This document shows positions 7,926-25,483 of a stretch of 25,483 nucleotides of DNA, piece after piece (the first letter of the stretch is position 1; every line of letters begins with the position of its first letter). Location: positions 1-25,483 of IMG/VR virus record IMGVR_UViG_3300049448_000207. The stretch is one strand, 5' to 3'. Source of the stretch: a virus. The notes under the pieces are model-generated. The model was not told the DNA's origin. It saw only the letters and a list, made by a program, of their open reading frames with translations, and did no database searches. The position numbers and the translations under genes are program-made.

Positions 7926-8220
7926 CTGCTACTCCTGAGGCTCATCACCTTTGTGGCGCTCCGCTCTTCCTTGGCTCGCGCATCAGCCTTACTGGCCGCG
8001 TCCTGGAAAGCATCAAGAACTATGTGAGCGTCTAACAGCATGTCCAACGTCCAGTCCCACATCAGTTCGTGAAGCCCTGAGTGGTAGTGCCCACTAATAG
8101 CGATGCGATGAAAGAACCAGGCGTCATCGCTGATGTCTAAGTGGTCGCCCTGGTCTCCCGACTTACGCTCTGATCTGGCACGCCCTTGAACACCTTCCAG
8201 ATACTGGCTGCGTCTGTAAA
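7922..8220 (-). CDS. -1 frame extension of the tail assembly chaperone
   Basis: In the -1 frame relative to the chaperone there is an uninterrupted reading frame that carries on past the chaperone stop (8139-8137) to TGA 7924-7922. It has no ATG, GTG or TTG before a Met deep inside the ORF. If ribosomes slip at TTTTTT (8223-8218, codons TTT TTT), 98 residues are added: 152 + 98 = 250 instead of 178. The extension looks like real protein, with WFFHRIAISG, LHELMWDWTLDMLLDAHIVL and DAASKADARAKEE. This reproduces the gpG/gpGT arrangement that precedes tape-measure genes in most tailed phages. The GTGA overlap with the tape measure strengthens the case. There is no experimental proof. Confidence 0.82.
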
Positions 8221-8673
8221 AAAGCTGGCGAAGTTCATGTTGAGGTGCTCGACCAGGAGGAGCATCAGCCCGCCGTAGTCACAGGCGAACGCTGACTCTG
8301 GATCGAGCCCGACCCATTCCCCATCATCGAGCCGCTTGCTTCTGGGGATGAACAGGTCGGAGAAGTACTGGAGGTCATCCTCGTCCAAGACATCGATCAG
8401 CTGTTGGAGCGTCTTAATCCCAACATCGATCTTGGCTGCGGTCTCGGCGTCGTTCCGGGCGATCTCCGCGGCAATGAACTCTTCGGGAGGAAGCCGTTTA
8501 TCGACCTCGGCTCGCCGGCTTTGCGAGCCCCTCACGACCTCGGAGATCTTGGCCAGCGTCGGGGCGGCAAGACGCATGATGCGAGTCATCGCCTTGACCC
8601 CAAGCGCGGGCGGCAGACCCTCGATGCGGTACCTCTGATCCTTGACCGTTACGTCCCTGGTGGGCTGTGGCAT
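8137..8673 (-). CDS. tail assembly chaperone
   Basis: From ATG 8673 the protein has 178 residues: MPQPTRDVTVKDQRYRIEGL, then PPALGVKAMTRIMRL and a mostly helical rest with charged segments (EEFIAAEIARNDAETAAK). The start RYRI..LPP..G pattern matches myophage tail assembly chaperones. Chaperones coat the tape measure while the tube polymerises. The frame is open up to an ATG at 8790, but this would translate through a 13-bp hairpin and tandem 12-mers (GAPF/GAPL repeats), so I prefer 8673. No good ribosome-binding site precedes either one. A palindrome (8678-8697) lies immediately upstream and may control translation. Confidence 0.85.
   Translation of the reverse strand: MPQPTRDVTVKDQRYRIEGLPPALGVKAMTRIMRLAAPTLAKISEVVRGSQSRRAEVDKRLPPEEFIAAEIARNDAETAAKIDVGIKTLQQLIDVLDEDDLQYFSDLFIPRSKRLDDGEWVGLDPESAFACDYGGLMLLLVEHLNMNFASFFTDAASIWKVFKGVPDQSVSRETRATT
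8197..8223 (-). promoter_or_regulatory. programmed -1 frameshift site
   Basis: In the chaperone reading frame the codons AGC TTT TTT ACA lie at 8226-8215, giving a run of six T (8223-8218) on which both tRNA-Phe can re-pair in the -1 frame. Ten bases further on is a weak 4-bp hairpin, CCAG-TAT-CTGG (8207-8197). The -1 frame then stays open to the tape-measure start. The heptamer is C TTT TTT rather than a perfect X XXY YYZ, so the precise slip position is likely but not certain. Confidence 0.7.
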
Positions 8674-8677
8674 ATAG

Positions 8678-8697
8678 GTACCGATATTTATCGGTAC
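8678..8697. promoter_or_regulatory. palindrome upstream of the chaperone start
   Basis: GTACCGATA-TT-TATCGGTAC is a perfect inverted repeat with 9-bp arms, ending 4 nt before the ATG at 8673. As RNA it would form an 8-bp stem with a four-base loop where a ribosome-binding site would be expected. It could equally be a DNA operator. Confidence 0.6.
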
Positions 8698-8724
8698 ATT
8701 ATGGCCCTGAGTGGGCAGCCCAAA

Positions 8725-8772
8725 GGGAGCCCCGAGGGGAGCCCCGAGGGGAGCCCCGAAGGGAGCCCCGAT
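8725..8772. repeat. four tandem 12-mers between tube and chaperone genes
   Basis: GGGAGCCCCGAG (8725-8736) is repeated at 8737-8748, 8749-8760 and 8761-8772, differing only in the last base. A degenerate unit (GGGCAGCCCAAA) lies at 8713-8724. Each unit contains CCCCGAGGGG or GGGGCTCCCC, so the RNA can fold into several alternative stems. Confidence 0.85.
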
Positions 8773-8797
8773 GACCCTACTGCAGGTCATCGGGGCT
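8764..8797. terminator. perfect 13-bp hairpin after the tail tube gene
   Basis: AGCCCCGATGACC (8764-8776) is the exact reverse complement of 8785-8797, with an 8-nt loop. The stem lies about 20 nt downstream of the tail tube stop. No run of U follows on either strand, so it is either an imperfect terminator or an RNA stability/processing element. Confidence 0.55.
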
Positions 8798-15860: not shown

Positions 15861-15880
15861 CACCTACGCGGGATACAGAA

Positions 15881-15922
15881 GGGTTAGCGACCCAGGGTTA
15901 GCGACCCAGGGTTAGCGACCCA
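15881..15922. repeat. three tandem 14-mers
   Basis: GGGTTAGCGACCCA occurs three times without change (15881-15894, 15895-15908, 15909-15922) in the gap between portal stop (15975) and protease start. Each unit has GGGT...ACCC ends and could make a small stem. There are no spacers. It may be an RNA structure, a protein-binding array or a slipped duplication. Confidence 0.85.
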
Positions 15923-15974
15923 GGGGGCGGCACCAACCAGCGAGCAGATTGCGGCCCCACCGGGTCGGGTGTCG

Positions 15975-17615
15975 CTACACCAAGGGTGCCGAAGCCGGTG
16001 GCGGAGCTGCTGGCGGTGGTGATGGTGGCGGAGCTTTGGGCAATGGAGGCGCCACCGGCGTGACCGTCACATCCCCGATCATTGAGCGAGCTACATCCTC
16101 AGAGAGACCGAAGAGGGCCGTGACCTGGGCGATAGCGGTGTCCTGACTGATCGTACCTTGGGCAACCTGCGTGATGATCTTGCCGATCGCATCGACCTGA
16201 GCGCCCACTGTACCGAGGTCTTTGTTGTTAGCTCCGCCCTCAACCAGGAGCGCATTCTCACCCTGCTCGAGCTGTTCATATAGAGCGGTGTCGATGCTCG
16301 TCTCCATTGACCAGCCATCGGGGCCGAAGCGATCGAGCGCCACATTGGAACTGGTGAGGACGCCACTGTTGAGGTAGATCTGGTCAGTCTCGGCGACAGT
16401 CTTACGGAGCGCTGCATCCTTCTCACCCTGTTGGGGATCTATGGGCGCGAACTCAAGGCGCCACATCTGAGGTTCTTGTTGTCCGCCCTCCGCGAGTAAC
16501 AATCGAACTAGATGTCTGAGGCGTGGGCGTATGACATCGCGCTGATAGATGGAGGCATCCCCGTAGGCGATCTCCAGATCAGATTTGCCCGTAGCGTTAA
16601 GCCCAGCGGGGGCTTGGCCGGCGAGCATCGTTACGGGGATTCGAGCGGCAGCGGCCAGCCTATTGAACAGCCGATCGAGCATATCGGGAACGCCCGCGAA
16701 GGTGGTGGCGACCTTTTCAAAGCGTTCCCCGTCGGCATCTATAACTAGCGCTGAGGCGTTGTTGCGGGCGTAGTTGATGGTGCGCATGCGCTTTTGGAAC
16801 TGGACTTCGCCGTTCTCAGACTCGAGAATGGCCATCAGATCCTTGACCGCGTAGACGCCCTGACTGGCATCGTGTAGCAGTCGGGTAGCGTCTGCCCACG
16901 CGAGGCCAAACTCACGGAGCACGTCGTAGACTGCATCCAGGATCGAGTAGTCCCAGTAGGCGTTGGCGAGCTTTTCAAAATCACCTGTGAGAACGCCCGG
17001 GAAGACGATTACCCGTGAGGCATGCACCTGGATCGACTCGTACTGAGCGCCCATTCGGTGATTGAACGAGTACAACGAGGGCTCCCCGAACCGGGGATCG
17101 GTAGGGTCTTGGTTGAACTCTGAGACCCGTGAGATGGCTCGACGATCGAATGCCTTGATGAAGTTGATCCGGCGGATGCCCTGAGGGTTGCCTTCGAGGT
17201 CAGTCTCGACTGGTTCCCAAGGTTGACGACCGTCATCGATACCTAACAGGAGGATGCCGCCGCCTGTGCAGAGGCCCCAGATTGCGGCTTCGAGCACGAG
17301 GGGTGTAACGCGTAGCTCCTCGATCCGCATATGGATGGCCTGCTCGCGAGGGTCGTCATCCTCGATGCAGACTTCCCACTTGTTCTTGAGAGCCAGGCCA
17401 GGCTTGAACGAGCAGATGAGCCTGGCGAGATCGTTGCCCATGAACAGGCCCATCGCCATCTGCGGGCTCATCGCCGTGGTCGGGCGGAACTGCGTCTCTG
17501 AGCGGACGTCTCGAGAGCCACCCAAGCCGAGCGTCACGTTAAGCCAGCCGTCGAGCCTGGCCTTAGCGGCCGTCATCGCTGAGGCAAATGTGGACTGGAG
17601 CTGGGTCTCACTCAT
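15975..17615 (-). CDS. portal protein, DUF1073-type
   Basis: From ATG 17615 the protein has 546 residues; a TTG six codons earlier (17633) is an alternative. The portal core shows AMSPQMAMGLFMGNDLARLI (about 48-67), LEAAIWGLCTGGGILLLGID, the stalk region and the diagnostic QAPAGLNATGKSDLEIAYG (near 340), which is a G.NATG.SD..Y motif of DUF1073 portals. It makes the dodecameric DNA gate at the capsid vertex. The C-terminus ends in a Pro/Ala-rich tail of about 25 residues. No terminase gene precedes it here. Confidence 0.9.
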   Translation of the reverse strand: MSETQLQSTFASAMTAAKARLDGWLNVTLGLGGSRDVRSETQFRPTTAMSPQMAMGLFMGNDLARLICSFKPGLALKNKWEVCIEDDDPREQAIHMRIEELRVTPLVLEAAIWGLCTGGGILLLGIDDGRQPWEPVETDLEGNPQGIRRINFIKAFDRRAISRVSEFNQDPTDPRFGEPSLYSFNHRMGAQYESIQVHASRVIVFPGVLTGDFEKLANAYWDYSILDAVYDVLREFGLAWADATRLLHDASQGVYAVKDLMAILESENGEVQFQKRMRTINYARNNASALVIDADGERFEKVATTFAGVPDMLDRLFNRLAAAARIPVTMLAGQAPAGLNATGKSDLEIAYGDASIYQRDVIRPRLRHLVRLLLAEGGQQEPQMWRLEFAPIDPQQGEKDAALRKTVAETDQIYLNSGVLTSSNVALDRFGPDGWSMETSIDTALYEQLEQGENALLVEGGANNKDLGTVGAQVDAIGKIITQVAQGTISQDTAIAQVTALFGLSEDVARSMIGDVTVTPVAPPLPKAPPPSPPPAAPPPASAPLV

Positions 17616-17663
17616 GCCATAGCCGACTAACAAGATGGTTACGGCAGAGGGGTGCGCGTGGGC

Positions 17664-17873
17664 TCAGCGGCGCAGAGCTTGATTTAGGAGGCCCGCGAGG
17701 GCGAGGCCACGGCCAGGCATCGCTCGGAATTCTGGGCCGCCCCTAATGGAATGCCGATGGTTGCCGACCTCGTGAGCGAACTGAGCCAGCCTCTGCGAGA
17801 GTTGATGCTGGCGATATCCGAGGACGATGAGGCCCAGCCCTTGAGCCACCGTGATAAGGATCAGAGCGATCAT
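17664..17873 (-). CDS. small one-helix membrane protein
   Basis: A 69-residue ORF starts MIALILITVAQGLGLIVLGY, a likely single membrane helix, followed by a Gln/Leu helix and a basic C-terminus (LLNQALRR). ATG 17873 has GGAG one base upstream, a poor distance. The product could be an unrecognised small phage membrane protein. It lies about 40 nt upstream of the portal and downstream of the large inverted repeat. I do not assign a function. Confidence 0.5.
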   Translation of the reverse strand: MIALILITVAQGLGLIVLGYRQHQLSQRLAQFAHEVGNHRHSIRGGPEFRAMPGRGLALAGLLNQALRR

Positions 17874-17883
17874 GCTCCGCGTT

Positions 17884-18002
17884 TACACCATCCAGGATGA
17901 TGAGGCCGTCCGGGTGATTCATGCCCCGCGTTCAGTTGGGGGTTGGGGATTTCCACCAACACCACACCCCGGGCGGCCATCCAGGCGTACACCATCCAGG
18001 AT
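17884..18002. repeat. 15-bp direct repeats upstream of the membrane protein
   Basis: TACACCATCCAGGAT lies at 17884-17898 and again at 17988-18002, 104 bp apart. A part (GCCATCCAGG) also occurs at 17976-17985. The second copy runs into the left arm of the large inverted repeat. Such repeats could be recombination or protein-binding sites. Apart from them I see no gene between 17874 and 18109. Confidence 0.65.
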
Positions 18003-18104
18003 CCGTCCCCCGCGATCCTTCTCTCTCGTGGCTTCTGATCTCGGATCTCAGAGAGAAGAAGAGAGAAGATGTGAGTGTATAGGAGCGCGGGGGACGGATC
18101 TTGG
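17996..18104. repeat. large inverted repeat with 19-bp arms
   Basis: The left arm 17996-18014 (CCAGGATCCGTCCCCCGCG) is the reverse complement of 18086-18104 at 18 of 19 positions, the inner 15 being perfect. The 71-nt interior carries a second set of complementary runs: CTTCTCTCT (18018-18026) against two copies of AGAGAGAAG (18050-18058, 18060-18068). The whole 109 nt can form an elaborate stem-loop. The right arm lies 6 nt after the stop of the 51-residue gene. There is no U-tract, so it is not a textbook terminator. Confidence 0.8.
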
Positions 18105-18109
18105 AACCG

Positions 18110-18265
18110 TTAGGGCAAGGCTCCGCGCTCGCCAAGCTCCCGGCGGATGTCGTCCAAGAGGCCTGTGTAGTATTGACGCAGGCGCCCTGAGTCAAAGAAG
18201 CGCAGCATGGCCAACAGATCCTCGGTGCTCGTGGTGCGGATCCGCTCGTAGAGGGATGTGCTCAT
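18110..18265 (-). CDS. 51-residue protein coupled to the recombinase
   Basis: This is a short reading frame from ATG 18265 to TAA 18112-18110. Its ATG overlaps the recombinase stop (ATGA, 18265-18262), so translation should be coupled. The protein is charged and helical, starting MSTSLYERIRTTSTEDLLAM, followed by LRFFDSGRLRQYYTGLLDDI and a short acidic/basic end. I do not recognise a family. Its coupling suggests it works with, or controls, the recombinase. It is followed by the 109-nt inverted repeat. Confidence 0.65.
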   Translation of the reverse strand: MSTSLYERIRTTSTEDLLAMLRFFDSGRLRQYYTGLLDDIRRELGERGALP

Positions 18266-18849
18266 GCTGCCGCCTTGGCGAGCGCTCGATGCAGTGTACC
18301 CACTCCACAGCCTAGGCGCTTGGCGGTCGCCTCGATTGAGAGCCCCTGCTTGCGGAGTTTGAACGCCTCGTCCAGGTCGACCGTGACCTTGGGTCGACCG
18401 AGCCTGATGCCATTACGGCGAGCCGTGTCTAGCCCCGCTGCTGAGCGCTCGATGAGGCGGGCTCGCTCTTGCTGGGCAGCCCAGGCAAAGACGGCGATCA
18501 AGAGAGGGCGGACTGGTGAGTCACGCTCCATCGAGAGCCAGGGCTCTGAGTAGCTGACCACTTGGCACTTGATGGCGTCGAGGTCGGTGATGGTCTTGAC
18601 CACGTGGGGCATGTTGCGACCCAGGCGGTCTATCGCCCAGCAGAGCACCACTTGGTAATCGCCACGGTGGGCACCCGCGAGCAGCTCATCCAAGCCCGCC
18701 CTCCTAGTCTTGGAGCCGCTCACCCGGTCGATGATGGGTTCGCCCACTAGGGTCAGACCACGGGCTGCCGCAATCTTCAGCAGGGCCGGCAGCTGGTTCT
18801 CGGGGCTCTGATCGGGGCGTGAGACTCGGAGATAGATCTTCGCTAGCAC
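18262..18849 (-). CDS. small serine recombinase (resolvase/invertase family)
   Basis: The 195-residue protein is full length for a small serine recombinase. The catalytic N-terminus is IYLRVSRPDQSPENQ, with R8 and the nucleophile S10. The DRLGR motif is at 74-78 and the family helix QQERARLIERS at 126-136. The C-terminal 35 residues (LRKQGLSIEATAKRLGCG) form a helix-turn-helix that binds DNA. Such enzymes cut both strands at short crossover sites to resolve or invert DNA. The start must be GTG 18849, since TAA lies two codons upstream. Target sites are not known; the inverted repeat and the 15-bp repeats downstream are candidates. Confidence 0.9.
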   Translation of the reverse strand: MLAKIYLRVSRPDQSPENQLPALLKIAAARGLTLVGEPIIDRVSGSKTRRAGLDELLAGAHRGDYQVVLCWAIDRLGRNMPHVVKTITDLDAIKCQVVSYSEPWLSMERDSPVRPLLIAVFAWAAQQERARLIERSAAGLDTARRNGIRLGRPKVTVDLDEAFKLRKQGLSIEATAKRLGCGVGTLHRALAKAAA

Positions 18850-18990
18850 CCCTTAGGGTAGCACAGATCCGCCATCAATCATTCGGTTCCGGAAGGCGAA
18901 AAGCTAGGGATTCTGGGGGCCTAACTTCTCGGATTCCTTGGCCAGGCTTTCCAGACTCGCGAGACGTATTTGGAAGACTAGGGGCTGTCC

Positions 18991-19305
18991 CTAACGAGTC
19001 CACTGCGCAGCGAACCGGCGGAGCTGATCCATCGCCCGGCGTACCCCGACCTCTGCCGCGACGCTGGCAATCAAGCTCTGGATGTGGGGCTCGCGAGCCC
19101 GGAAGAATCGGAGGTCTTCGTGGTCATCATCCCCGAGCGGCTCAGGCTGCTGCTGGACGCCCACGAGCATCGCCTCCATTGACCGCTGGGCATCGCCTAG
19201 GAGGCGGTGCAGTTCGACGTTCTCCTGCTTGAGCAGGGCCGTGCTTCTGGCCAGCTCGAGAAAGTGGCGGTTGGTCGGCGGGGGCTGGGGGCTGGGCATG
19301 CTCAC
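18991..19305 (-). CDS. unknown small protein, coiled-coil-like
   Basis: This 104-residue protein is not recognised. After a Pro-rich start (MSMPSPQPPPTNRH) comes a helical stretch LARSTALLKQENVELHRLLG with leucine heptads, and a basic C-terminal helix (VRRAMDQLRRFAAQWTR). The start is GTG 19305 overlapping the upstream stop (GTGA) or ATG 19299, which has AGGG 5 nt upstream. It precedes the recombinase by about 140 nt. No function is assigned. The gap 18850-18990 holds no gene that I can see. Confidence 0.6.
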   Translation of the reverse strand: MSMPSPQPPPTNRHFLELARSTALLKQENVELHRLLGDAQRSMEAMLVGVQQQPEPLGDDDHEDLRFFRAREPHIQSLIASVAAEVGVRRAMDQLRRFAAQWTR

Positions 19306-19862
19306 CCTACACCTGCCAGGATGGCGGCGAAGTCCTCGTCGAGATCAGGGATGGGCTCCGCTGGCGGCTCCGGAGCTGGCACCGGGATCGGGCTCTCATC
19401 CTCCGGGGCATCCAGCACAGGGTCTTGCTCGGGCTCGGGCTGGGCGGGGGGTGCCCATTCAAGTGGGCCGCGTCCATTGGGGATCGCCTGCATCGCAGCC
19501 TCACCGGCTTGGTAGGGAGCGGCGGAGAAGTTGTTCTGGGTATAGAGCTGGGCGGGGATCAAATCACCCATGCACCGCAGGAATATCTCGGCCAGGCCCC
19601 GGCGAATGAGCATCGCATTGGGGGTGCCAGGATTATCGAATCCGGCCCCGGCCATCCAGTCGGCCAAGTACATGAGGCGCATCTCCCGGTCGGTCACGAG
19701 CATCCTCGCGAGCGGACTAGGTAGGTAGTTCCGGGGCTTGGCCAAGATGTGCTCGACCACCTCGGTCACGGGCAGCGCGGTGGGGGCGACCAGCGACTCG
19801 GTCACCGCCTCCCTCGTGGGGCGGCCAGGAGGCTTCTGTCGAGGCGTATAGTTACGGGTCAT
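19302..19862 (-). CDS. unknown protein with acidic Pro-rich C-terminus
   Basis: The protein has 186 residues: a basic N-terminus (MTRNYTPRQKPPGRPTREAV), a helical core (MLVTDREMRLMYLADWMAGA, about 54-73) and a C-terminal Pro/Glu-rich linker (PPAQPEPEQDPVLDAPEDE) ending in DLDEDFAAILAGVG. I do not recognise the fold. Its position before the portal invites a small-terminase guess, but no helix-turn-helix or terminase motif is seen and no large subunit follows. ATG 19862 has no ribosome-binding site. It is divergent from the plus-strand gene at 19956. Confidence 0.6.
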   Translation of the reverse strand: MTRNYTPRQKPPGRPTREAVTESLVAPTALPVTEVVEHILAKPRNYLPSPLARMLVTDREMRLMYLADWMAGAGFDNPGTPNAMLIRRGLAEIFLRCMGDLIPAQLYTQNNFSAAPYQAGEAAMQAIPNGRGPLEWAPPAQPEPEQDPVLDAPEDESPIPVPAPEPPAEPIPDLDEDFAAILAGVG

Positions 19863-19955
19863 CTAACACAGGAGGTTCATTGAGAGAACTTTCCCCCATG
19901 GCTTCAGCTCGCGAGGGCCTGAGGGGATTTTTCCGCTATTGGTGTACTTGCCTTA

Positions 19956-20159
19956 ATGATCACTCTAAACCTCCTACACCCAGATCTACTCAATCAGATC
20001 GTCCTAGAGCGTCGCAAGGTTCGCCAGCGTGAGCACACCCGCAAGTGGAAGCTCTGCAACCCCAATGCTGTAAGAGGGCATAACGCTAGCTGGAGGGCGG
20101 CTCACCGCGAGCACCACAATAGCTATCACAGGGCATACCGTGCCAATCATAAGGGGTAG
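19956..20159 (+). CDS. small basic Arg/His-rich protein
   Basis: A 67-residue plus-strand ORF. After a leucine-rich start (MITLNLLHPDLLNQIV) comes a strongly basic part: ERRKVRQREHTRKWKLCNPN, then W46RAAHREHHNSYHRAYRANH. The W..AHRE..N.Y.RAYR.NH pattern is like the basic repeats that precede HNH nuclease domains and probably contacts DNA or RNA; no nuclease domain is present. No good ribosome-binding site precedes ATG 19956. The intergenic stretch 19863-19955 should hold divergent promoters, but I cannot point to a convincing one. Confidence 0.5.
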   Translation: MITLNLLHPDLLNQIVLERRKVRQREHTRKWKLCNPNAVRGHNASWRAAHREHHNSYHRAYRANHKG

Positions 20160-20269
20160 TGCCCCAATAGGAGGGGGTCTGAGAGGGGCGGGGCTTCGCC
20201 CGGCCTAGCTCAAGCGTTATGTCCAGTGCCCCCGGGCGGCTGAGAGCTGGGCAGCGACAGCGCGGTCAG

Positions 20270-20290
20270 AAACGAGTCTGACTCGTTTTT
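20270..20290 (+). terminator. rho-independent terminator-like hairpin
   Basis: AAACGAGT (20270-20277) pairs with ACTCGTTT (20281-20288) across CTG, and the run ends in five T. It lies about 110 nt after the plus-strand gene that ends at 20159. The preceding stretch 20160-20269 holds no gene but has a GC-rich hairpin near 20190 (GGGC-TTC-GCCC). The T-run also shows that the TTG at 20289 is an unlikely start for the next gene. Confidence 0.65.
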
Positions 20291-20302
20291 GGGTGCGCAA
20301 TC

Positions 20303-20352
20303 ATTGCCAAGTGGGCAACATTGGCAACATTGCCAGATGGCTACATTGCCAA
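20303..20352. promoter_or_regulatory. cluster of TTGCCA/TGGCAA operator-like half-sites
   Basis: TTGCCAA occurs at 20304-20310, TTGGCAA (same site, opposite strand) at 20321-20327, TTGCCA at 20330-20335 and TTGCCAA at 20346-20352, with GGGCAA at 20313-20318 as a weaker copy. All lie within 50 bp over the likely start of the RHH protein. Repeated half-sites with mixed orientation are typical of RHH operators, so autoregulation is plausible. Confidence 0.5.
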
Positions 20353-20618
20353 TGAGCAATCTTACCCAAGGTGTAGCCCAGCCCATGCCCTCCCCGAAGC
20401 TCTATTTCCGTTGCCCCCAGGGGCTCCATGACCGGTTCATCGGGCATTGTCTGGCTCAGGGGCTGTCACCCAGTGAGGCACTCAAGATGGCCGTCGAGCA
20501 ATGGTTGGGGCCTATTATTCTCGAGCTGTCACCCAGGCCTCCGGCTGACCTTGAGGCTATTCTCGCCGAGTTCCAGCGTCAGGGTGTGCTAACCATTGCT
20601 GACCCATCTCTAGAGTGA
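20337..20618 (+). CDS. ribbon-helix-helix (RHH) DNA-binding protein, putative
   Basis: From ATG 20337 the protein has 93 residues; ATG 20352 is equally possible. The frame is open to a TTG at 20289, but this is inside a terminator. The segment KLYFRCPQGLHDRFIGHCLA followed by QGLSPSEALKMAVEQWL resembles an RHH domain: a strand, then two helices with the G.S.SEA turn. Such proteins are dimeric repressors. Repeated TTGCCA half-sites lie over its start. It overlaps the following gene by GTGA (20615-20618). Family assignment is by pattern and is moderately sure. Confidence 0.65.
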   Translation: MATLPMSNLTQGVAQPMPSPKLYFRCPQGLHDRFIGHCLAQGLSPSEALKMAVEQWLGPIILELSPRPPADLEAILAEFQRQGVLTIADPSLE

Positions 20619-20818
20619 CCCGTCAGTCCGTTGCTCCAGATTGCGCCAATCATCACCATCGATGGCATATTGCCTATCTAGTCCAGCAGGGAACTTGGTT
20701 GCTAGCATTTGGCCATTGCCTCTATTGCGGCGCTCCCGGGGAGGGCGAAACTCCACAGGCTCAACCTGACCCAGTGGGTTGCATGCGTGTTGTGAGGCTG
20801 GCCGCGACCATGGTCTAA
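20615..20818 (+). CDS. small Cys/His protein, possibly zinc-binding
   Basis: The 67-residue protein starts at GTG 20615, overlapping the stop of the RHH gene (GTGA), so the two are translated together. C10, H13-H15, H18, H34, C35 and C38 (FGHCLYCGAP) could make one zinc site. No known family is recognised. Its stop codon overlaps that of the converging minus-strand gene by 3 nt. The role may be regulatory, together with the RHH protein. Confidence 0.55.
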   Translation: MTRQSVAPDCANHHHRWHIAYLVQQGTWLLAFGHCLYCGAPGEGETPQAQPDPVGCMRVVRLAATMV

Positions 20819-21138
20819 GACTCGGTTGCAGCCCGGATCTCTATCGCCTCGACCGTGCAATCGTAGGATTGGGCAGTTGCCTCCAGCCGCAAGACAGCGG
20901 TCAAGCCCCTAGCCTGTACCCTCTCTAGCTCTTGCTTCAACAGTCGGGCATCGACGAGGCTAATACCTCCAACTTCGATCGCCAGCTGATCCAGCATGTC
21001 ACATGCACCCTCTAGGGTCATTGACCGAGAGTCATCGATATCGACCTCGGGTAGACTCAACATGACCACCACCCTCGATGGATCGAAATAGGGGTCATCA
21101 AGTAGTTCTCGGATCTCATGAAGGAACAGGTCTGGCAT
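20815..21138 (-). CDS. unknown acidic protein
   Basis: From ATG 21138 (or GTG 21141) this 107-residue protein begins MPDLFLHEIRELLDDPYFDP, followed by RVVVMLSLPEVDIDDSRSM and a helical part (GACDMLDQLAIEVGG, LLKQELERVQARGLTAVLRL). It looks like a compact globular alpha/beta protein, but I do not recognise it. It lies 6 nt after the HNH gene in a minus-strand operon and converges with the Cys/His gene, where stops overlap. Confidence 0.6.
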   Translation of the reverse strand: MPDLFLHEIRELLDDPYFDPSRVVVMLSLPEVDIDDSRSMTLEGACDMLDQLAIEVGGISLVDARLLKQELERVQARGLTAVLRLEATAQSYDCTVEAIEIRAATES

Positions 21139-21147
21139 CACTCTACC

Positions 21148-21693
21148 CTAGGCAAGACGTTTGAACTTCCCGTGAAGCCGTTCAGCCGCGTGACAGTAGG
21201 CTTGGTATGCTTCTTCCTTGGTTGCAAAACAGCCTAGAGACGCGGTCTTACCCGCGATCGTGATCCTGGCGTTCCAGGGCCTTGTGGAATTGACCGAGCG
21301 CTTATCCCGGCGCACTCCCTTGATCTTTGCTTCATTGTTGCTCCTCAAGCATTGATTGCAGGCGTTCTGCGATGGCGTGGCCAATCTGAGATTGCTCAGT
21401 CGATTGTCGATGCGATTGCCATTGGCATGATCCACCCATAGACCCGATGGTATTGGGCCATTGTGTCGTTCCCAAATCGCCCGGTGGAGAAGCATCCGGT
21501 GGCTACCGATGAAATAGACTTTCCCTTGGTCGCGAGATGGGGCATGTGATGACCAATTCCACTGGGACGCCCAGCTAGCATCCTCTATGTCTATGATCAC
21601 ACTGAAGCCCTTGGTTGCCTCGATGAGGGCCGTCCCACTGAATGGCTCTTGATAGACGGCGCGCAGTGAATTGGTTCTGCCAGGCACGAGCAC
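21148..21693 (-). CDS. HNH homing endonuclease with AP2 domain
   Basis: The 181-residue protein has the N-terminal strand pair of HNH-AP2 nucleases (TKGFSVIIDIEDASWASQWN, about 27-46). The HNH core has H70-R71 (LLHRAIWERHNG), D88-H89 (WVDHANGNRIDNRLSNLR) and N97/N101. A C-terminal AP2 DNA-binding domain (KGVRRDKRS...RPWNARITI...GCFATKEEAYQAY...AERLHG) spans about 125-178. Such free-standing nucleases spread by cutting alleles that lack them. The start is GTG 21693, two bases after the upstream stop, so it has settled between genes without an obvious break. No intron is seen. Confidence 0.9.
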   Translation of the reverse strand: MLVPGRTNSLRAVYQEPFSGTALIEATKGFSVIIDIEDASWASQWNWSSHAPSRDQGKVYFIGSHRMLLHRAIWERHNGPIPSGLWVDHANGNRIDNRLSNLRLATPSQNACNQCLRSNNEAKIKGVRRDKRSVNSTRPWNARITIAGKTASLGCFATKEEAYQAYCHAAERLHGKFKRLA

Positions 21694-21695
21694 GA

Positions 21696-22712
21696 CTACA
21701 CCGGCTCCATGAAGTCGACTACCTTAATCGCTGGCTTAATGGGCGCATCCAGTGACCCTCTCCAGGCAGGCTCTCGCCAAATCAGCTTGCGTAAGCTTGA
21801 CCTCGGCCCGTACGGTTGATGCGTCCAGTGACCCCTCACTAGAGTCGCCACCGTTGAGGGTTGCCTACCCCCCGCGCAGTAGTCGACCACTTGTTGGCGA
21901 ACATCAATCTTGGTCGGTCTCGCCACCATGAACCGCCGGTGCTGCGGTGCTCCCTCTTCGCGTTGGGGGCCTCTCGTCCATCCGGGTCGATGCTTGCCAA
22001 GAGGTCGGCACCACTCGGGATTACTCATCGCGATCAGGAGGTTGGTCACTAGGGATTTCAAGCAGGCGATGATCCTGTCTACCTCTCGAGGAATCGGCCA
22101 CTCGAGCGCAGTCCCCGTCCCCGGATCACCGCTTGGCTCTGCCTTGAGCAGCTCTTGTTGGGTCAGGTTCCTCGTGCCCAGTTGCACGATGCTGGCATCA
22201 GCCATCGCTGTGATTGACCATCTTGGCCCGACCTCGGTCTCCATCACCCTCACGAGCGCGTAGCGGAGCCATGTCCTCTGGTGCTGCTCGGGGTCTTCTA
22301 CCCACAAGAGTCGATCCGGGATCTCTAATATCCAAGCTCGCCAAGGGGTATGCAGCTCCAAGGTCTCGGGCAATGATGTACAGATTGCCGCCGCTGCCCA
22401 CCTATGGGTGGTCTGGACGATCGCGCAAGCCTCGTGTACCCACAGGACATCGCTCAGCAGCTCCTGGCGGCAGCTGGGCACCGTCATCATGTCTCTCAGA
22501 TAGCTCTTGCGCGGTGACTCGGGTAACTCTTCTACATATTTGATCAGCGCCGCGAGCGCTTGTAGATCATTGGCAACATCGGGGCGACCGTATGTGTACT
22601 CCCAGAGGGCAAGACCATTGCCCCGCAACAGGTCGAGCCAATCGACCCGGGTAGTCGGGTCGACTTGCTCTCGGATCCTGGCGGCGGCGTCTAGGATTGC
22701 CTCGGAGTGCAC
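21696..22712 (-). CDS. unknown protein with C-terminal GHW-YGP motif
   Basis: The 338-residue protein starts at GTG 22712. Most of it is helical, with many Trp and Leu. Near the C-terminus (292-310) there is VRGHWTHQPYGPRSSLRK, followed by WREPAWRGS. A G-H-W-x-x-Q-x-Y/H-G-P...LR motif near the end is known in uncharacterised phage and plasmid proteins of varied hosts; function is unknown. The upstream part (ITAMADASIVQLGTR and beyond) gives no further hint. It lies 8 nt after the next gene upstream in a minus-strand operon. Confidence 0.75.
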   Translation of the reverse strand: MHSEAILDAAARIREQVDPTTRVDWLDLLRGNGLALWEYTYGRPDVANDLQALAALIKYVEELPESPRKSYLRDMMTVPSCRQELLSDVLWVHEACAIVQTTHRWAAAAICTSLPETLELHTPWRAWILEIPDRLLWVEDPEQHQRTWLRYALVRVMETEVGPRWSITAMADASIVQLGTRNLTQQELLKAEPSGDPGTGTALEWPIPREVDRIIACLKSLVTNLLIAMSNPEWCRPLGKHRPGWTRGPQREEGAPQHRRFMVARPTKIDVRQQVVDYCAGGRQPSTVATLVRGHWTHQPYGPRSSLRKLIWREPAWRGSLDAPIKPAIKVVDFMEPV

Positions 22713-22720
22713 CCCAGCCG

Positions 22721-23518
22721 CTACACCCCCAGCTCCTCCTCCAACTCGGCGAGCCTATCGAAGACGGTGGGCGGCAGCTCGGCGAGCGGCTGCTCGCTCA
22801 AGACCGGTGCACAGCCGCCCAGTACTTGCTCCAGTTGGTATCGGCTGCGCTGATAATTCTCTGGGCTGATCCTGAGATCAGGCGCATCGATCAGGGCCAA
22901 CTCGACCGCTCTCCTGTAGTCCACCTCAGCTATGCGGATGTCTCGTCGAACGAGGATCCCGTTAATCGTGTCTCTCAAATGTGCCCAGCAGTCCGGGTCA
23001 CCGGATAGCCAATGGAAGCCAAGAGGCCCTTGCGCGAGGTGAAAGCCATCCTTGCTGAGGCTATATTCGCTCTCGATCCCCGTCTCCGCGCAATAGAGGC
23101 GCACGATGTAGGTACGCTTCGGGTGGCCCATTTGGGCCATCAGGTACTCGTCGGTCTTACTCTTCTGGTTGCTTCGGTTTTCGCTCGATTCCCTAGACTG
23201 GCAGGCGATCACGATCCTATCGTCTGGGCGCTCGATCACGAACGCACCCGCGCAGCGCTCCACCGTGCAGCCGCAGTGCCTTGCGGCAAGTAAGCGGGCG
23301 CACTCACCCAGGCATAGGCCGATCGTCGATGTCCTGACCGTGAGGAGCCTACTGGAGGCCAATTCATCCTCCCGCATGTTTGCAACCCTGAACGGATTGC
23401 GGATGATGTGGGCGGCGACCTCGTCGGCCTCGCGGGTGCGCCTCTGGAGGTAGCGTAGCCAGCTGACTCGTAGGCCATCCATGGCGGGTTGGACTATCTG
23501 TTCTAGTGTTGGCGGCAT
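22721..23518 (-). CDS. unknown protein with clustered cysteines
   Basis: The 265-residue protein is the first gene of the minus-strand operon. ATG 23518 follows GGAGA by 6 nt. C69, C73, C82, C84 and C89 (GLCLGECARLLAARHCGCTV) form a cluster that may bind a metal. An acidic C-terminus (VFDRLAELEEELGV) ends it. I do not recognise a family; the middle shows mixed alpha/beta composition (GHPKRTYIVRLYCAETGIES). The preceding 170-bp gap carries repeated operator-like sequence, so the operon is probably repressed. Confidence 0.65.
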   Translation of the reverse strand: MPPTLEQIVQPAMDGLRVSWLRYLQRRTREADEVAAHIIRNPFRVANMREDELASSRLLTVRTSTIGLCLGECARLLAARHCGCTVERCAGAFVIERPDDRIVIACQSRESSENRSNQKSKTDEYLMAQMGHPKRTYIVRLYCAETGIESEYSLSKDGFHLAQGPLGFHWLSGDPDCWAHLRDTINGILVRRDIRIAEVDYRRAVELALIDAPDLRISPENYQRSRYQLEQVLGGCAPVLSEQPLAELPPTVFDRLAELEEELGV

Positions 23519-23595
23519 TCGGGGTCTCCAATCGGTTGGACTGCCAGCGCCTCTACACCGACCCGATCAATCTCGAATAGGTCGCCAAGATCAGA

Positions 23596-23638
23596 TCCCT
23601 AGTGGTCTATATGACCTCGACCTACATTCCCTAGTGGT
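23596..23638. promoter_or_regulatory. paired direct repeat, candidate operator
   Basis: TCCCTAGTGGT lies at 23596-23606 and at 23628-23638, exactly 32 bp apart, that is about three DNA turns, so both copies face the same side. They lie in the 168-bp divergent gap between the minus-strand operon (start 23518) and the RHH gene (start 23687). No convincing -35/-10 pair could be chosen. Confidence 0.5.
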
Positions 23639-23686
23639 TGGCGAGCCGATCGATCATGCTCATCGAGATCTGGTGTACTGGAGGGC

Positions 23687-23875
23687 ATGGATATCTTGAG
23701 CGAGCTGCTGCGACCTGGCCCCCCGAGGCTAGATCACCAGCTCTCGATAATGATGACGAGCGAGCTACGAGACCTGATTAAGGAGCTGGCTGTCAGGGCT
23801 AGCTTGAGCCAAGCAGAGGTCGCACGTCGACTTCTGCAGGATGCTGCTGAGCGGCTGATGGCCACGAACCCTTGA
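23687..23875 (+). CDS. small RHH repressor, CopG/Arc-like
   Basis: The 62-residue protein has a ribbon-helix-helix pattern: strand HQLSIMM (17-23), helix A TSELRDLIKELAVRA (24-38), turn SLSQ, helix B AEVARRLLQDAAERLM (43-58). This is the core of CopG/Arc repressors, which act as dimers. A ribosome-binding site (GGAGGG) lies just before ATG 23687. It is divergent from the minus-strand operon across a gap with a pair of 11-bp repeats. It likely controls that operon and itself. Domain assignment is by pattern. Confidence 0.7.
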   Translation: MDILSELLRPGPPRLDHQLSIMMTSELRDLIKELAVRASLSQAEVARRLLQDAAERLMATNP

Positions 23876-23878
23876 AGC

Positions 23879-24163
23879 ATGGCTAGCCCGATCCATATGA
23901 TCACGTGGGGTCAGAAGATCCCCCTGGGCGCCCTTGGCCCCTTGCCGCTGGGAGCCACTCTAGGCGGGCATGCAAAGATCCGTGTTGCACCGGGGTGGGA
24001 TCAAACCCACCACGTCTCCTGGAGCCGTCTGAGCCCGTTGCTGGGCGAGGCTCTGAGAATGGGATTCCCCGAAGGGTTGGATGACCTGGGATGGGGAGGA
24101 CGACCAATCGCCACGAGGGAGGCCATCCAGGGGCTCAGCCCCAGTCCTCCTCCAGGTATATGA
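23879..24163 (+). CDS. possible small protein after the RHH gene
   Basis: A 94-residue frame starts with ATG 23879, 3 nt after the RHH stop, so the two could be co-translated. The sequence is rich in Gly, Pro and Leu (LGALGPLPLGATLGG) and then has HHVSWSRLSPLLGEALRMGF and EGLDDLGWGGRPIATREA. No family is recognised and composition is not strongly protein-like. A minus-strand frame (23960-24307) overlaps it but looks less likely. I give it only even odds. Confidence 0.45.
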   Translation: MASPIHMITWGQKIPLGALGPLPLGATLGGHAKIRVAPGWDQTHHVSWSRLSPLLGEALRMGFPEGLDDLGWGGRPIATREAIQGLSPSPPPGI

Positions 24164-24223
24164 TCTCTTTAGGTTAATTGTTAAATTAACTCTAGAGAGA
24201 GAATTATCCTGTGTGGTTAACCG
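24164..24223 (+). promoter_or_regulatory. AT-rich inverted repeat, possible promoter
   Basis: GTTAATT (24173-24179) is inverted at 24184-24190 (AATTAAC) around GTTA, and the flanks CTCT.TAG / CTAGAGAG extend the symmetry. The stretch is notably AT-rich against its surroundings. TTGTTA (24179-24184) and AATTAT (24203-24208) are 18 bp apart and could serve as -35 and -10 for the tiny ORF at 24224. This is a weak match. Confidence 0.4.
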
Positions 24224-24370
24224 GTGACACCTCACCACAAAAAGCACAAGCAAGAACAGAAGCACGAGAACCCAGTGAACAATCAACCCATCCAAGAGAA
24301 GGAGCAACAGCCCTCAATAGAGCTGAATCCGAATCTCTCCGTGATGCTTGATCAACACCAGCCTCAATAG
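24224..24370 (+). CDS. possible 48-residue Gln/His/Lys-rich peptide
   Basis: A short frame begins at GTG 24224 and ends at TAG 24370. It reads MTPHHKKHKQEQKHENPVNN, then QPIQEKEQQPSIELNPNLSV and MLDQHQPQ: strongly polar and rich in Gln, His and Lys, unlike random frames of this G+C-rich DNA. It may be a disordered small protein. An AT-rich palindrome with weak promoter-like boxes precedes it. No ribosome-binding site is clear. It converges with the endonuclease gene. Confidence 0.4.
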   Translation: MTPHHKKHKQEQKHENPVNNQPIQEKEQQPSIELNPNLSVMLDQHQPQ

Positions 24371-24392
24371 CTGTGATCGCCGAAGCTCCAGT

Positions 24393-24423
24393 GCCCCAGG
24401 TTGCCTCAATGGTAGCCTGGGGC
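24393..24423. terminator. hairpin between converging genes
   Basis: GCCCCAGG (24393-24400) pairs with CCTGGGGC (24416-24423), an 8-bp stem with a 15-nt loop, followed on the plus strand by a modestly T-rich stretch (CTTGGTTATT). It lies between the plus-strand peptide ORF and the end of the minus-strand endonuclease and could stop transcription from both sides. No other gene is seen in 24371-24471. Confidence 0.45.
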
Positions 24424-24471
24424 CTTGGTTATTGGGCTAGCCTTCAATAGCTAGGCGAGCGAAGCGAGCCC

Positions 24472-25483
24472 CTATCGATGAGCGGCGGCAGCCGCGCCCC
24501 GCCGCGCTCGTCGACGCTTCCCGGATGAGAGCAGCCGGACATTCCAATTGGGATGGCTCAAGAGGTCGGCGGGATCGTCGTGCTCGTCCGTGTACTGCCA
24601 GGGCTCGCTATGCGGGCTAGTTTTCTGGAACAGCTGTCTGGCCGTGACCTTGTAGTAGTCCATCGGGTCTTTCGGCATTGAGACTTTGAAAGCCAGAATG
24701 TTTCTGCCCTGTCTGAATTGCCAATAGTGCTCGACACCCAATCGCCGACACTCCCTCCGAAAGCCGGAGAGCGTCGGAAAGTCTTGGCGTCGACCTTTGG
24801 CGGCATCAGCGTTGTCTTCTCGACCGCAGTCGGGGCAAAACCTAGCTGCGCTCTTCATGATTGTCAGAGTGTTCTTGAACACCTTCCCGTGTGTCGTACA
24901 GAGCCAGCGGTGCTCGTCCGTAGGTGAAAGGCACATCTTACCCAAGAACTCGCCCTCGTGGGCTGCAGCGTACTCATGGCATTCTTTGGTTAGCTCCTCG
25001 ACCCTAGCGGAATTGACCTTCAGTCGGAACGAGCGGATCAGCCGCTTGAGGCCCCCTGGTCGAAGTCGTATGCCACGCTTAGTCAGCATGCCCGCCGCCC
25101 AACGCAATAGCGCCTCCTTCCCCTTCTTCTCTGCGGCCTCGAACTCCTCAATGGTAGGGCGCATCAGCTTCACACGCTTCTGGCGGCACCTCCTGACCTT
25201 TAGCGGATCGTACTTTGAGCGGCCTCCAAAATGAGCGACCTCCCGATTGTGCTGTTGCCCTTGAAACTCGAACGCGGCCAGAAGCTCTTCGCAAAAACCG
25301 TCCAGCTCCAGCGGGACACCTCTCGACGACTTGCGCCTTACCTTCGGACTCCTCAACCACTTGGGGCGCGTCTTCGGCCACTTGAACCCCGTAAGATGTT
25401 CAACCATCTGCCTGAAGATGGTCTCGCCACGCGGAAGCTTGCTGCAGATCGCGCAGCCTTTGCCCCGCTTCAAGGCTTTGTAG
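24472..25483 (-). CDS. zinc-ribbon/restriction-fold endonuclease, 5' end outside the window
   Basis: The frame is open to the right edge. TTG 25473 could be a start, but the frame continues (Y-K-A-L) and begins inside a treble-clef repeat (second pair CAIC), so the N-terminus is missing. Residues numbered from that TTG show CAICSKLP, then TRPKWLR, the nuclease-fold signature LELDGFCEELLAAFEFQGQQ (55-74) with E56/D58 and E69, H75, then a basic region. A second treble clef is at about 190-217 (WLCTTHGKVFKNT...FCPDCG). This fits EDxHD/Vsr-related free-standing nucleases of phages. A His/Arg/Ala-rich end follows. Function as a homing endonuclease is inferred. Confidence 0.65.
   Translation of the reverse strand, partial: YKALKRGKGCAICSKLPRGETIFRQMVEHLTGFKWPKTRPKWLRSPKVRRKSSRGVPLELDGFCEELLAAFEFQGQQHNREVAHFGGRSKYDPLKVRRCRQKRVKLMRPTIEEFEAAEKKGKEALLRWAAGMLTKRGIRLRPGGLKRLIRSFRLKVNSARVEELTKECHEYAAAHEGEFLGKMCLSPTDEHRWLCTTHGKVFKNTLTIMKSAARFCPDCGREDNADAAKGRRQDFPTLSGFRRECRRLGVEHYWQFRQGRNILAFKVSMPKDPMDYYKVTARQLFQKTSPHSEPWQYTDEHDDPADLLSHPNWNVRLLSSGKRRRARRGAAAAAHR

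Follow-up and report, generated by a model that had tools for sequence, protein, structure and literature searches.

In the phage genome fragment analysed here, a long inverted repeat lies directly behind a serine recombinase unit, and the question raised by this locus is whether the repeat is a DNA site on which that enzyme acts, some other signal of the phage DNA, or a structure that works in RNA. The window, that is, the whole stretch of DNA that was analysed, is a 25,483-base IMG/VR viral record, a linear fragment with a G+C content of 59%. It belongs to a contractile-tailed phage, in which a portal protein (PF06381), a head maturation protease, a major head protein, a tail sheath and a tape measure protein were recognised, all of them encoded on the minus strand. 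Reading along this strand, the order is serine recombinase, 51-aa ORF, a 236-nt gap, 69-aa ORF and portal gene (Table 1).

The inverted repeat and the gap that holds it

The inverted repeat is real and non-random. Its two 19-nt arms, 17996-18014 (CCAGGATCCGTCCCCCGCG) and 18086-18104 (CGCGGGGGACGGATCTTGG), show complementarity at 18 of 19 positions, with a 71-nt spacer between them, exactly as the initial annotation had described for an element of 109 nt; moreover, the repeat can be extended to 17995-18105, with 25 nt in each arm and two mismatches. Its ungapped score of 17 is the highest for any spaced inverted repeat in the window and was reached in none of 600 order-2 simulations, in which the maximum was 16. 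The short, bounded arms do not suggest a chimeric assembly as the origin of the repeat.

Table 1. Positions of the hairpin, the direct repeat and the neighbouring genes in the window.
Feature	Position	Strand	Remarks
Portal protein (PF06381)	15975-17633	minus	First recognised head gene past the hairpin; family match
69-aa ORF	17664-17873	minus	Hydrophobic N-terminus; first coding ORF past the hairpin; codon signal
Non-coding gap holding the hairpin, 236 nt	17874-18109	minus	Codon signal of the ORFs in the gap off-frame-like or well below that of genes
Direct repeat TACACCATCCAGGAT, copy 1	17884-17898		Just before the 69-aa ORF
Direct repeat TACACCATCCAGGAT, copy 2	17988-18002		Runs into the left hairpin arm
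Left arm of the inverted repeat, 25 nt	17995-18019		Complementary to 18081-18105 at 23 of 25 positions; 18 of 19 in the inner 19-nt part, 17996-18014
Interior between the extended arms, 61 nt	18020-18080		C/T-rich and G/A-rich runs
Right arm of the inverted repeat	18081-18105		Pairs with the left arm
51-aa ORF	18110-18265	minus	Overlaps the 3' end of the recombinase gene; positive codon signal; no relative found
Serine recombinase, resolvase/invertase type	18262-18849	minus	Intact YLRVS and DRLGR motifs; C-terminal HTH

The gap also contains a 15-nt exact direct repeat, TACACCATCCAGGAT, whose two copies are 104 nt apart; a comparably close 15-nt direct repeat of any sequence arose in 5 of the 600 simulations, and a third copy, with two mismatches, is found at 19308-19322. 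Repeats of other kinds occur elsewhere in the window. Three tandem copies of a 14-nt unit (AGGGTTAGCGACCC), each of which might form a small hairpin, lie at 15880-15925 between the portal and protease genes. A 12-nt tandem repeat at 8719-8766, which forms the local fold of highest stability in the window, lies within the coding frame 8137-8790 (minus), where it yields a repeated Gly-Ala-Pro-Leu/Phe near the N-terminus. Lastly, a tail-fibre-like ORF of more than 938 aa (2-2815) has degenerate internal repeats of about 62 nt and runs off the left end of the record.

The codon signal was used to delimit the genes around the hairpin, with 0.15 as the 5% level for pieces of known genes. The 51-aa ORF scored 0.14 bits per codon in frame, and -0.43 and -0.38 when the frame was shifted; the 69-aa ORF scored 0.22 bits per codon. 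Four ORFs run across the hairpin or border on it, at 17870-17995, 17743-17922, 17932-18195 (minus) and 17851-18315 (plus). With lengths of 41, 59, 87 and 154 aa, they gave codon scores between -0.12 and -0.38 and were thereby ruled out as genes. Since the crossing or abutting ORFs score off-frame-like or well below genes and the flanking ORFs are coding-like, the hairpin lies in a non-coding gap.

Both the recombinase gene and the gene coupled to it, as first annotated, are present, and the coupled ORF has a coding-like codon signal. Its stop codon is 4 nt from the extended arm; the adjacency claimed for this gene holds, but its distance from the right edge of the 109-nt element is 5 nt and not 6. 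Similarly, the placing of the repeat ahead of the late operon is true for the reading direction, the 69-aa ORF and the portal gene coming next; an operon may start at this point or run through it.

A predicted stem-loop between two gene blocks

The hairpin is predicted to fold strongly in every form considered: -66.1 kcal/mol for the plus-strand RNA (z -6.9 versus shuffles), -61.1 kcal/mol for the minus-strand RNA (z -5.8 versus shuffles) and a z of -6.7 for the DNA. The predicted stem is G+C-rich and 20-25 bp long. An unbroken run of 20 pairs is predicted for the plus strand; on the minus strand the run is interrupted once (15 + 4 pairs) at an outer pair which is G-U on the former and A-C on the latter, so that the antisense (plus) transcript folds slightly better than the sense (minus) one. 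The polypurine and polypyrimidine runs that had been noticed in the interior are indeed there; in the predicted folds of the minus-strand RNA and of the DNA they pair to give an upper stem, in that of the plus-strand RNA only loosely.

On these grounds we tentatively suggest, with a probability of roughly 0.45, that the repeat is an intercistronic mRNA stem-loop of the leftward (minus-strand) transcript, which would mark off the recombinase unit from the head genes, rather than a site for the neighbouring recombinase. This reading is supported by a repeat that exceeds chance, by the strong fold predicted on both strands, by the position in a non-coding gap between coding-like ORFs, by the start of the hairpin so close behind a stop codon with a coding ORF of the same direction downstream, and by the finding that distantly related phages have similar spaced inverted repeats, including one between the terminase and portal genes of locus L022. 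A long loop (about 60-70 nt) disfavours the extrusion of a cruciform from DNA; thus, the spacer of this size points to RNA as the natural form of the hairpin, and of the options listed by the initial annotation it is the structured RNA that is favoured. Counting against it are the slightly better fold of the antisense strand and the fact that no copy of the hairpin was found elsewhere.

If the mRNA stem-loop is the correct explanation, the gap would be transcribed leftward through the hairpin, and the stem would act as a boundary in the mRNA, via cleavage by a double-strand-specific RNase and/or via protection of the 3' end of the upstream mRNA. The recombinase unit and the head genes would thereby be expressed, and would decay, at different rates; factor-dependent termination might also contribute to such an uncoupling. 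Stem-loops that process or stabilise mRNA between cistrons are known in phages, e.g., the RNase III sites between the early genes of T7, and the stem core has about the length used by double-strand RNases such as RNase III. Indeed, the predicted fold offers the 20 bp or so (or more) of double-stranded RNA in mRNA that an RNase III site has, broken once by the A-C on the minus strand. The literature on phage RNase III sites in late operons yielded nothing directly usable.

The same position behind a stop codon would also suit a terminator of the recombinase unit, either of the Rho type or a hairpin lacking a U-tract, perhaps bidirectional, which would insulate the unit from the head genes. Along the entire minus strand, C exceeds G most in a 78-nt stretch that begins at 18120, where the 51-aa ORF ends, and continues into the hairpin, as does its plus-strand counterpart, which begins at 17950; however, the C excess on both strands is partly a product of the arms themselves, and the C-minus-G ranking was examined after the fact. 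Furthermore, a U-tract is absent on both strands, no terminator was called at the site, and no promoter of its own was identified for the portal side, and we regard a terminator as possible but unlikely. No T-run follows the stem, the next letters being TGGTGTACGC (minus) or ACCGTTAGGG (plus), and the missing U-tract rules out a standard intrinsic (Rho-independent) terminator. Instead of the short loop of such terminators (3-8 nt), there are 61-71 nt between the arms, even though the inner pairing may shorten the effective loop.

The neighbouring recombinase and the terminase slot

The adjacency of the recombinase gene raises the possibility that the repeat is a DNA site of this enzyme, in the form of crossover sites, of a site for resolution or of a very small invertible segment. 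The protein, with a resolvase catalytic domain and a C-terminal HTH, aligns over its full length with the Tn3 and gamma-delta resolvases and with DNA invertases and, judging from its sequence, looks catalytically intact. The sites of this class of recombinases are imperfect dyads of roughly 26-34 bp, and an imperfect 28-bp dyad (20/28) does exist in the interior, at 18033-18060; however, it is probably part of the upper stem. Neither of the arms forms a dyad that stands out from the background (the best 26-bp dyad scores 0.46 over the left arm and 0.38 over the right one, against a 99% level of 0.54 in the window), scans for hix- and res-like consensus sequences were negative at the arms, and the 71 bp that Hin/Gin-type enzymes would have to invert make a short segment, a shortness which the initial annotation had also remarked. 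Hence a role as site of the adjacent enzyme appears decidedly improbable, and neither the recombinase target nor the tiny invertible segment put forward at first is borne out by these data.

The link between the recombinase and the hairpin is one of position only. We know of no serine recombinase that uses long-loop hairpins as sites, and for this reason the hairpin would be of greater import only if it were tied to the recombinase. One could imagine that it is a functional partner of the recombinase unit, as an RNA or folded DNA recognised by the recombinase or by the 51-aa protein, and that the unit is a mobile cassette inserted in the terminase slot upstream of the portal gene, a scenario to which we assign only a very slim chance.

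As for that slot, its usual occupant is the large terminase gene, situated no more than 3 kb upstream of the portal gene in 50 of the 53 related loci having both genes; here the place is occupied by the recombinase unit. The window, including 18110-25483, yielded no large terminase gene, which may lie beyond the ends of the linear fragment. The same part of the window encodes, at 21148-21693, an HNH endonuclease with an AP2 domain, homing-endonuclease-like. The presence of the hairpin at the usual place of the terminase, beside the portal gene, together with the best fold being that of the plus-strand RNA, would be compatible with a phage signal for packaging, for replication or in single-strand DNA, or with a small RNA made from the plus strand. 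Against them, no sigma-70-like promoter was found nearby on the plus strand and no family of Rfam 15 matched the hairpin at the gathering threshold, and functions of this kind seem to us very improbable. The sub-threshold hits of a relaxed Rfam search were mostly animal microRNA-precursor models, which reward any long hairpin, and none was credible.

Copies, relatives and comparison with known systems

Copies of the hairpin were found neither among 50,697 phages nor among 2.9 million viral contigs, which is not evidence of uniqueness; the exact patterns of the arms and of the core hairpin had no match in the viral contigs, and DNA similarity searches of phages and plasmids gave nothing meaningful. 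Searches with the recombinase, the portal protein and the major head protein revealed no close relatives of the phage; the relatives identified through the sheath reach only 31-34%, and the best recombinase match in two phyla is 36%. No relative of the 51-aa ORF was found in phages, in plasmids or in 299 genomes of one phylum, the last of these results carrying no weight, as the search lacked a positive control.

The comparison was extended to 82 loci of distantly related phages (1.0 Mb), none of which encodes a relative of the recombinase or of the 51-aa ORF. They contain 32 inverted repeats above a looser cut and about nine at the score of that in the window, i.e., approximately one comparable repeat per 100 kb, which implies that such inverted repeats are not rare. 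Besides the one in L022, another, in L014, is 114 nt long; several of the long repeats belong to A+T-rich genomes and may represent a different type of structure. The hairpin is probably an element of an ordinary sort, in a phage for which no close relatives are known.

In bacterial genomes the arm core has 16 matches, none of which shares the interior or the outer arm of the hairpin. At L090:131-222, L091:7081-7172 and L096:1875-1966 there are large hairpins that have the arm core CGTCCCCCGCG and a common interior; they recur in two Pseudomonadales genomes and apparently form a repeat family unrelated to that of the window.

These comparisons bear on the idea that the repeat is a single REP/REPIN-like miniature palindromic element derived from a host genome. 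Inverted REP doublets have this length, about 110 nt, with two inverted arms around a spacer, and this placement behind a coding sequence (PMC3116915; PMC3733652), and CGTC, the tag of one REP superfamily, occurs within the arms. However, in CGTC-tagged REPs each arm is a small stem-loop with the tag outside the stem (PMC3733652), whereas the arms of the hairpin have neither an internal stem of 8-9 bp with a loop of 4-5 nt nor a GTAG/CGTC tag placed outside such a stem. The phage record holds a single copy, the bacterial matches diverge as described, and no RAYT-type transposase was recognised among the scanned proteins; an origin of this type appears improbable.

Among the other known systems, the invertible segments of Hin, Gin and Cin resemble the locus in that inverted repeats lie close to a suitable type of serine recombinase, but the arms here are not 26-bp dyads, and a segment of about 71 bp is far below those known to be inverted. 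Factor-dependent (Rho-type) terminators have in common with it a strong stem behind a stop codon, preceded by a stretch rich in C and poor in G; the ranking of that stretch is partly caused by the arms, and the terminator would be a candidate one. If the hairpin does work as an mRNA stem-loop, it would be one more untranslated stem-loop parting functional gene blocks in a phage, in this case in a lineage for which no close sequenced relative was found. In comparison with the RNase III sites of the early genes of T7, the hairpin, known from its predicted fold, has a larger loop and was found as one site only; it resembles them in its long G+C-rich stem, in its place in an untranslated gap between genes of the same direction and in its position behind a stop codon.
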